A DNA stretch of 64,000 bases from Methanomethylovorans sp. PtaU1.Bin093 (GTDB lineage Archaea > Halobacteriota > Methanosarcinia > Methanosarcinales > Methanosarcinaceae). Shown here piece by piece: positions 20,002-22,372 of the stretch. Location of the stretch: NCBI RefSeq assembly GCF_002067275.1, contig NZ_MVQX01000087.1, positions 1 to 64,000 of the forward strand. Direction: 5' to 3'. A program made the translations under genes and the position numbers. The notes under the pieces are model-generated. The model saw nothing but the letters and a program-made list of their open reading frames with translations, ran no database searches and had not been told where the DNA came from. Position 1 is the first letter of the stretch. Each line of letters opens with the position of its first letter.

Positions 20002-20736
20002 ATGCAACTCAAATCAACTAGTTCTATTAATGTTCTGATAGTGTTGTCCTTTGTGATAATGACCGTAGGACTATCTTCAGCTGCCGACCTAAGTCAATGG
20101 GCTTCAGGTGCCACTGCAAGCAGCGAGTACTCTGCTTCTGGTTGGTCAGCAAACAAAGCTACAGGTGCGCCGGATACCGCTAAGTGCGGAGATGTCAATA
20201 CTGCCTGGGCTCCCAGCTCATCGGGTTCGGACCCAGAGTGGTTGAAGTTGTCGTTCACAACACCTGTTCTGGCTACAGGCATTCGTGTCCATGAGACCTA
20301 TAATGCGGGATCCATATACCAGGTGGACCTTGTGGATACTTCGGGTCAGAGCCATACAGTATGGACCGGAACAGACAGCACTGCTTGTCCCGGCTGGTTC
20401 GAGATCACTTTCCCTAAAACCGAATATGCAGTGAATGGTGTTATCCTGCATACTAAGATAGCAGGCTGGGAGGAGATCGATACAGTCGAGCTTATTGGGG
20501 ACACTGATACCACCACAGTGCCGTCTTCAACTTCTGGCACATCCACTGGTACTGCATCCCCCACTAATGTGGGTGTTTCTCCAAGACAGTGGGCTTCAGG
20601 TGCCACAGCAAGCAGTGAGTACTCTGCTTCTGGCTGGTCGGCAAACCAGGCTGCAGGTGCGCCAATACCGATAAGTGCGGAGATATCAATACTGCCTGGG
20701 CTCCCAGCTCATCAGGTTCGGACCCAGAATGGTTGA
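20002..20736 (+). CDS. 5' fragment: signal peptide and first sugar-binding-like domain
   Basis: As read, this frame gives 244 residues: a signal peptide (hydrophobic NVLIVLSFVIMTVGLSSAAD), a complete first domain with SQWASGATASSEYSASGWSA and KATGAPDTAKCGD, a TSGTSTGTASPT linker, the first 20 residues of the second domain, and then about 23 out-of-frame residues after 20663. The domain type occurs in secreted archaeal and bacterial proteins and looks like a jelly-roll carbohydrate-binding module. Ribosome site GAGGAGGT is strong. Confidence 0.72.
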   Translation: MQLKSTSSINVLIVLSFVIMTVGLSSAADLSQWASGATASSEYSASGWSANKATGAPDTAKCGDVNTAWAPSSSGSDPEWLKLSFTTPVLATGIRVHETYNAGSIYQVDLVDTSGQSHTVWTGTDSTACPGWFEITFPKTEYAVNGVILHTKIAGWEEIDTVELIGDTDTTTVPSSTSGTSTGTASPTNVGVSPRQWASGATASSEYSASGWSANQAAGAPIPISAEISILPGLPAHQVRTQNG

Positions 20737-20990
20737 AGCTGTCTTTCGAAAAGCCTGTCCAGGCCACAGGTGTACGTGTCCACGAGACCTATAATGCGGG
20801 ATCCATGTACCAGGTGGACCTTGTGGATACTTCGGGTCAGAGCCATACAGTATGGACGGGAACAGACAGCACTGCTTGTCCTGGCTGGTTCGAGATCACT
20901 TTCCCCCAAACCGAGTATTCTGTAAGCAATGTTATCCTGTACACTAAGATAGCAGGCTGGGAGGAGATCGATGCAGTCGAACTGCTGGGT
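20094..20990 (+). repeat. tandem repeat encoding the duplicated extracellular domain
   Basis: Two copies, offset by 492 bases (about 20095-20500 and 20587-20992), are nearly identical in DNA, for example CCATACAGTATGGAC...GGAACAGACAGCACTGCTTGTCC split over both copies. The high nucleotide identity points to recent duplication or gene conversion. The single-base loss at about 20663 is in copy 2. Confidence 0.85.
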
Positions 20991-21608
20991 GAGGGCGCTG
21001 GAGGGACCGGTGCATCAGTTCCATCTTCGCCATCTTCGGTTGCGACCATAACATTCGAATCGCGCACGACTCCTATGGGAAGTACTGTGCAGATCCCCAT
21101 TACATTGCAAGGAGTTACCGGTAACATTGGAAACATGGACCTTACGTTGCAATACGACCCGGCTGTTCTGGAGGCAAAGGAAGTCATGAACGGCCCACTT
21201 ACCCAGAGTGCCATCTTTGATTCTAATATCGTAGCAGGGAACATTAAAGTGAGCCTCGCTTCAAATCAGGGTTTTGGTGGCGATGGTGTAATAGCTTATG
21301 TAAAGTTCAATGTGATCGGAGCTGTGGGTTCATCTTCTCCGCTGAAGATCTCCAGAGTTTCGGCAAACAATGCAGACGATCTGCAGTCAGTTACGATCTC
21401 TGCTAAAGACGGACTTTTCAAGGTTATCAGTGCAACAGAAGGTTCAGGGGACGCTGATGGTGATGGCACCTATTCAGCAATGGATGCCCTGGCAGCATTG
21501 CAGATGTCAGTGGGTAAGATGGATAAGCAATCCTTTATGGATATGAATAAGGATGGAGAGATAACTTCACTTGATGCAAGGATGATCTTGCAGCTGGCAG
21601 TAAAATGA
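20733..21608 (+). CDS. 3' fragment: second domain, cohesin and dockerin-like end
   Basis: The downstream frame is open from about 20664, well before the nominal TTG at 20733, which lies inside the domain and has no ribosome site, so it is a continuation rather than an independent gene. It holds the rest of domain 2, a PSSPSS linker, a cohesin domain (ITFESRTTPMGSTVQIPITL ... DLTLQYDPAVLEA ... GVIAYVKFNVIG) and two EF-hand-like dockerin loops ending ILQLAVK. Confidence 0.72.
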   Translation: MKLSFEKPVQATGVRVHETYNAGSMYQVDLVDTSGQSHTVWTGTDSTACPGWFEITFPQTEYSVSNVILYTKIAGWEEIDAVELLGEGAGGTGASVPSSPSSVATITFESRTTPMGSTVQIPITLQGVTGNIGNMDLTLQYDPAVLEAKEVMNGPLTQSAIFDSNIVAGNIKVSLASNQGFGGDGVIAYVKFNVIGAVGSSSPLKISRVSANNADDLQSVTISAKDGLFKVISATEGSGDADGDGTYSAMDALAALQMSVGKMDKQSFMDMNKDGEITSLDARMILQLAVK

Positions 21609-21633
21609 ACGAACCATTAATGGAGGGAATAAT

Positions 21634-22164
21634 ATGAGAATAATAATATGTGCTCTGCTCTTGATAAGTCTTATATCCGTAGCATCAGGTGCATCTTTGG
21701 TTGTAAGCATAGGGGACATTCAAGGTTCACCGGGTAGTACTGTCCAGGTGCCCATTATGGTCGAAGGCGCCACAGATGTCGGAAGTGTGGACATAATGCT
21801 GAAATATGATGCCTCGGTGCTTAAGGCTGTCAGTGTGGAAACTTCCGATCTAGGTAAGAATGCCATTATGGAATCGAATCTCGCAAACCCGGGCCAGGTA
21901 AACATTGCACTTGTGGATGCTTCCGGTATCAATGGAGAAGGTGAGATAGCTACCATCTCCTTCTCTGTGCTGGGTGAAACAGGGGCATCCAGTCCTCTGT
22001 CACTGGTAGAAGCTTCGGTTTTTGATCTTGAACTGGTGGAGCAGCAGACCACTATCAGTAATGGGGCATTCACTGTTGCAGAATCTAAAGGCGCAGGATA
22101 TGCGTTCTTTTTGATAACATTGATAGCAGCCGTGCTTGCTGCAATGGTCATAAGGAAAAATTGA
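21634..22164 (+). CDS. membrane-anchored cohesin-domain protein
   Basis: A 176-residue exported protein made of a signal peptide (MRIIICALLLISLISVASG), one cohesin domain, and a C-terminal membrane anchor (AFFLITLIAAVLAAMVI followed by RKN). Cohesin marks: IGDIQGSPGSTVQVPI, VDIMLKYDASVLKAVSV, GEIATISFSVLG. Cohesins bind dockerins; the preceding gene ends in a dockerin-like segment 25 bases upstream, so this protein could hold it on the cell surface. The GGAGGGAA ribosome site precedes the ATG. The two genes are likely one operon. Confidence 0.8.
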   Translation: MRIIICALLLISLISVASGASLVVSIGDIQGSPGSTVQVPIMVEGATDVGSVDIMLKYDASVLKAVSVETSDLGKNAIMESNLANPGQVNIALVDASGINGEGEIATISFSVLGETGASSPLSLVEASVFDLELVEQQTTISNGAFTVAESKGAGYAFFLITLIAAVLAAMVIRKN

Positions 22165-22298: not shown

Positions 22299-22372
22299 TG
22301 GGCCCGGGGAGATTCGAACTCCCGACCTCCGCCGTGTGAAGGCGACGTCATGACCAGCTAGACCACAGGCCC
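22299..22372 (-). tRNA. tRNA-Val (anticodon CAC)
   Basis: A complete 74-base cloverleaf on the minus strand: acceptor GGGCCTG/CGGGCCC with discriminator A, D arm with GTCT..GAC, anticodon stem TCGCC/GGCGG with loop TTCACAC (anticodon CAC, reads GUG), and T arm GGGAG-TTCGAAT-CTCCC. CCA is not encoded. No intron. Confidence 0.95.

Follow-up and report, generated by a model that had tools for sequence, protein, structure and literature searches.

Two neighbouring genes of Methanomethylovorans sp. PtaU1.Bin093 probably form a surface-display module of the type represented by AF2375/AF2376 of Archaeoglobus. Both lie on the plus strand, as do all features of the pair described below, and both belong to the window, i.e., the whole 64,000-nucleotide stretch of contig NZ_MVQX01000087.1 that was analysed. 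The upstream gene (20002..21608), encoding two discoidin-like domains, a cohesin and a dockerin, is referred to as CD, while the downstream gene (21634..22164), a cohesin gene with a C-terminal membrane helix, is referred to as the anchor; the 25-base spacing originally given for them is correct. The source assembly comprises 2.1 Mb in 100 contigs and is 86% complete. Across the whole of it, the Pfam Cohesin profile matched just two places, both at this pair, and the search for further dockerin genes that had been suggested at the outset found Dockerin_1 above its cut-off at the window CD gene only (86% completeness applying here as well). The inventory of the genome is, in sum, one CD gene, one anchor and no copy of the third gene found in many related loci. 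A tRNA-Val (cac) gene occupies the minus strand at 22299-22372, directly 3' of the anchor, which is the position of the third gene in other loci.

The CD gene begins with a signal peptide, read by eye (MQLKSTSSINVLIVLSFVIMTVGLSSAA, 20002..20085), followed by two discoidin-like repeats. The first repeat (20089..20502) matched Pfam F5_F8_type_C just under the cut-off (3.8e-6, 27.5 bits against 28.2), and the second (20588..21000), which is 89% identical to the first in DNA and has a frameshift inside it, corresponds to a region of the orthologue that matched F5_F8_type_C_2 below the cut-off (3e-4). A cohesin domain nearest to the AF2375 cohesin (21048..21413, Pfam Cohesin 6.9e-17) and a dockerin domain (21447..21605, Dockerin_1 4.9e-6, 27.1 bits, cut-off 22.9) complete the gene. 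The signal peptide, discoidin-like repeats, cohesin and dockerin that the first-pass annotation had assigned to the upstream gene are, therefore, all present, but they are divided between two frames, with one base missing near 20663. Moreover, the two calcium-loop motifs noticed at the C-terminus, DADGDGTYSAMD (21450..21485) and DMNKDGEITSLD (21540..21575), are both canonical 12-residue loops, each followed by a helix, and together with the dockerin fold these are the features of a type I dockerin. Modelled alone with AF2, the domain reached a pLDDT of 87.9 (56 sequences), and dockerin chains head the Foldseek list of the model, so that the question of whether the C-terminal loops fold as a dockerin can be answered positively at the level of the model. 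Every chain among the first 31 Foldseek matches was dockerin-containing, most of the top 25 having TM-scores of 0.57-0.76, against about 0.3 for calmodulin-like EF-hands. No single Foldseek match of the dockerin model passed an E-value of 0.001, which is expectable for only 58 residues.

The anchor gene encodes a protein of 176 aa with a signal peptide, a cohesin domain nearest to AF2376 (21700..22077, Pfam Cohesin 1.5e-18), a C-terminal membrane helix and a basic tail (GAGYAFFLITLIAAVLAAMVIRKN, 22090..22161), in agreement with its initial description as a membrane-anchored cohesin. Both window cohesins passed the Pfam cut-off and were matched by sequence by 2xdh and clostridial cohesins, while the fold was examined on the relative L108, where the cohesin gave a TM-score of 0.87 to 2xdh and other type I cohesins matched as well. 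In the cohesin tree, which is built on a short alignment and does not return the CD cohesins as one clean group, a branch (93/88) separates 27 archaeal anchors from the CD cohesins. A role for the anchor as a PGF-CTERM substrate of archaeosortase A was considered and is not supported, as no match to the PGF motif was found in the window anchor; an archaeosortase A gene is present in the genome. The tails of the Archaeoglobaceae anchors are PGF-like, with scores that stay under the curated cut-off, and the Methanosarcinaceae anchors in the anchor profile (A1) have in common a GY preceding the helix.

The Archaeoglobus precedent named in the first-pass annotation was borne out domain by domain. 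In AF2375/AF2376, as in the window, the upstream gene has a cohesin and then a C-terminal dockerin, and the adjoining downstream gene encodes a signal peptide, a cohesin and a C-terminal membrane helix. The best match of the CD cohesin was AF2375 (41%), that of the anchor was AF2376 (38%), and the window dockerin matched the AF2375 dockerin at 45%. The two systems differ in the ectodomain, which is a beta-propeller (PD40) in AF2375 and two discoidin-like repeats in the window CD, and in the end of the anchor, which is PGF-like in AF2376 (16 bits, below the 24.5 cut-off), whereas the window anchor has no such signal. In genome G216, which we take to be A. fulgidus DSM 4304, the 2xdh cohesin sequence lies in a 506-aa protein (locus L144) with a dockerin at 433-487, and after this protein comes a cohesin protein that has a PGF-like helix at its end. 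The dockerin position agrees with the published boundaries, namely a dockerin at 432-506 in ORF2375 and a cohesin at 29-162 in ORF2376 (PMC9705933). The binding of AfuDoc75 to AfuCoh76 has been reported to be strong and specific, indeed the most specific and strongest within a published set of pairs, and the pair has been put to use for surface attachment (PMC9705933). The docking of the two window proteins on each other, as first proposed, is well supported by orthology to AF2375/AF2376, by this published binding, by adjacency of the genes across archaeal families and by the dockerin fold, while the broken CD frame in this assembly speaks against it.

The distribution of the two genes was examined with the profiles A1 (anchor) and A2 (cohesin-dockerin unit) in 112 Methanosarcinaceae genomes, only strong matches (A1 over 200 bits, A2 over 290 bits) being counted. 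The anchor was found in 12 of these genomes and CD in 12, with both present in 11 (Fisher p 3e-13 for co-occurrence over the 112 genomes, kinship ignored); within the genus of the window, the genes occur in 2 of 6 genomes. A phylum-wide sample of 394 genomes added Archaeoglobaceae (a family name inferred from G216) and other families, and the named matches include ANME-1/Methanophagales. Fully read loci hold, in this order, between one and three CD genes, a single anchor and, in many cases, a third gene encoding a small secreted dockerin protein. In almost every locus, CD is the immediate upstream neighbour of the anchor, at a spacing of -44 to +31 nt, and operon neighbours are a few bases apart or have start-stop overlaps. 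CD-anchor pairs are a tight and patchily distributed operon of Archaeoglobaceae, Methanosarcinaceae, ANME-1 and others. L115 has this order as well, since the profile search placed its anchor between CD and the third gene. Departures from it are an orphan anchor (L119) and a locus where the anchor is joined to a long protein that is partly masked (L117). The third gene is absent from the window, L035, L108, L116, A. fulgidus and the ANME-1 pair L159.

Several variants were also observed. Locus L116 (7900-10262, genome G058) holds a divergent pair with a beta-propeller CD protein and the anchor end LPGFELWMAAFVIFLTMLFRRS, and this pair is more Archaeoglobus-like than its own family. In ANME-1/Methanophagales, there are single ORFs that join a CD-type cohesin to an anchor-type one and lack a dockerin (L157, 4934-6874; L158, 7078-7719), and the CD gene of L155 (3481-4866) is found in two ORFs, possibly owing to another frameshift. 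As well, Methanosarcinaceae proteins with three cohesin matches in a single frame, which are scaffoldin-like, were found at L013, L015 and L020, even though, until the ANME reports, archaea had been described as devoid of scaffoldins. On a Chloroflexi contig (L044, 3842-6369), a CD-like gene precedes the gene of a cohesin protein with, by eye, a lipobox-like N-terminus; if that reading is right, this locus would work in the same way but with a lipoprotein signal as the anchor.

For the third gene, the A3 profile gave ten full-length matches in Methanosarcinaceae, each beside an anchor, and third-gene loci comprise L105-L107, L109-L115, L145-L149, L153, L154 and L156 (for example, L114 8080-8718). 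Most genomes of Methanosarcinaceae encode secreted proteins of about 160 aa that have no dockerin and that the halves flanking the dockerin match in one contiguous stretch. Such a dockerin-free relative is also carried by the window genome (contig C13, L163 610-1065), with no Pfam match. The Methanosarcinaceae dockerin lies within a member of this widespread secreted family, whereas in Archaeoglobaceae it stands in front of a seemingly related domain, and this difference suggests that an older secreted protein acquired a dockerin more than once.

In the mechanism proposed for the module, the anchor would be exported and fixed in the membrane through its C-terminal helix, its cohesin facing outward, while the CD protein, exported without an anchor of its own, would be retained by its C-terminal dockerin, which would dock on the anchor cohesin in a calcium-dependent manner. 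The docked CD protein would then present two discoidin-like domains, which are probably sugar- or surface-binding, and its own cohesin would be left free for another dockerin. At the window pair, we infer the binding, its calcium dependence, the membrane topology, the ligand and the use of the second cohesin. The parts list of the operon fits an anchored, possibly chain-forming surface display. The ectodomains of other CD proteins (among them LamG, AbfB, FecR and beta-propellers) favour adhesion or surface-sugar binding over catalysis, and a role in adhesion or in a matrix appears plausible.

The CD dockerin might also, or mainly, dock on the cohesin of another CD protein, giving head-to-tail chains that the anchor starts and the dockerin-only protein ends where it is present; we regard this as possible, although doubtful. 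Such chains would suit the count of one cohesin and one dockerin per CD, one cohesin per anchor and one dockerin per third-gene protein, and several loci have two or three CD genes per anchor. In addition, the A. fulgidus dockerin reportedly bound both cohesins (Voronov-Goldman, 2011). However, the CD and anchor cohesins are separate conserved classes that may have different partners, and the window genome has one CD gene and no third gene. The separate conservation of the two classes could reflect two specificities or two roles. Mirror-tree distance correlations of the dockerin with the two cohesins were similar (0.87 and 0.84) and do not discriminate between them as its partner, and a linked cohesin-dockerin-cohesin construct of the in-frame relative L108 gave an AF2 pTM of 0.53, a score that does not in itself show docking. 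A self-assembling surface fibre, which the anchor cohesin would start, CD proteins with varied ectodomains would extend head to tail and the dockerin-only protein would cap, with the window as its minimal capless form, is a speculative extension to which we lend tentative weight at best.

The surface-display reading has also to accommodate the state of the CD gene. The reading frame from 20002 ends at 20736, within the second discoidin repeat. A different frame (20733-21608), which has no signal peptide, encodes the cohesin and the dockerin, and a single CD protein could not be produced from the gene as assembled. The nearest relative with both genes, a Methanomethylovorans MAG of the same genus group (G051, locus L035), has an uninterrupted CD orthologue of 532 aa. 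Alignment with it (89% DNA identity) places a single-base gap in the window near 20663, and the frameshift site (20660..20668) has one base fewer than both the orthologue and repeat 1, while the remaining difference in CD length amounts to 9 bases in total, with the frame kept. We consider it unlikely that the locus is a decaying pseudogene in a lineage that has lost surface display, with the anchor alone still making protein. It is true that the frameshift precedes the cohesin and the dockerin, that the downstream ORF has no signal peptide, and that both genes are absent from four other genomes of the genus, which indicates that the module is dispensable. Against this, the dN/dS (Nei-Gojobori) of the part ahead of the break is 0.146, that of the part behind it 0.136 and that of the anchor 0.185, and 308 codons run without a second lesion. 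Moreover, the break falls in one of two tandem repeats of 89% identity in an assembly of 100 contigs, so that errors are likely at this very point. Strong selection on either side of the break points either to an error of the assembly or to a loss that is very recent, and both fit; a genuine frameshift would mean that this strain no longer has surface display.

Docking within one chain, with the dockerin folded back onto the cohesin of the same CD molecule instead of an intermolecular pair, is very improbable. Few residues separate the two domains in the CD protein, but so short a linker makes self-docking awkward, the anchor stays beside the CD gene across families, and the Archaeoglobus dockerin binds the cohesin of its neighbour (PMC9705933).

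A cellulosome-like enzyme scaffold can be rejected as scarcely credible, since, despite cohesin and dockerin folds of the cellulosomal kind, the window genome (86% complete) differs from those of cellulosome hosts in that no scaffoldin with several cohesins and no dockerin-bearing hydrolases were found in it, a single dockerin exceeded the cut-off, and the Pfam search of the CD protein gave no match to a glycoside hydrolase domain. By analogy, the window pair may be compared with the anchoring scaffoldins of cellulosomes (e.g., OlpA/OlpC), where a surface-held cohesin of the same fold captures a dockerin protein, although the window anchor has a membrane helix in place of the S-layer-homology domain. 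Non-cellulosomal archaeal cohesins and dockerins were already known (PMC9012536, PMC5244752, PMC9705933). The operon of CD, anchor and third gene was not found described in the literature searched, which consists mainly of open-access papers, nor was the CD-anchor operon in the accessible parts of the two ANME papers (PMC9012536, PMC5244752). What is new is a CD-anchor operon with exchangeable ectodomains, in which several CD genes frequently accompany one anchor, together with a third gene. It links AF2375/AF2376, hitherto an isolated biochemical curiosity, to a recurring archaeal operon and offers a concrete set of parts, open to testing, by which methanogens and ANME relatives may equip their cell surfaces with proteins in the absence of cellulosomes. 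The ANME cohesin and dockerin proteins, for which attachment of proteins to the cell surface has been suggested, are, like those of the window, non-cellulosomal and archaeal, while ANME genomes carry far more copies (PMC9012536, PMC5244752).
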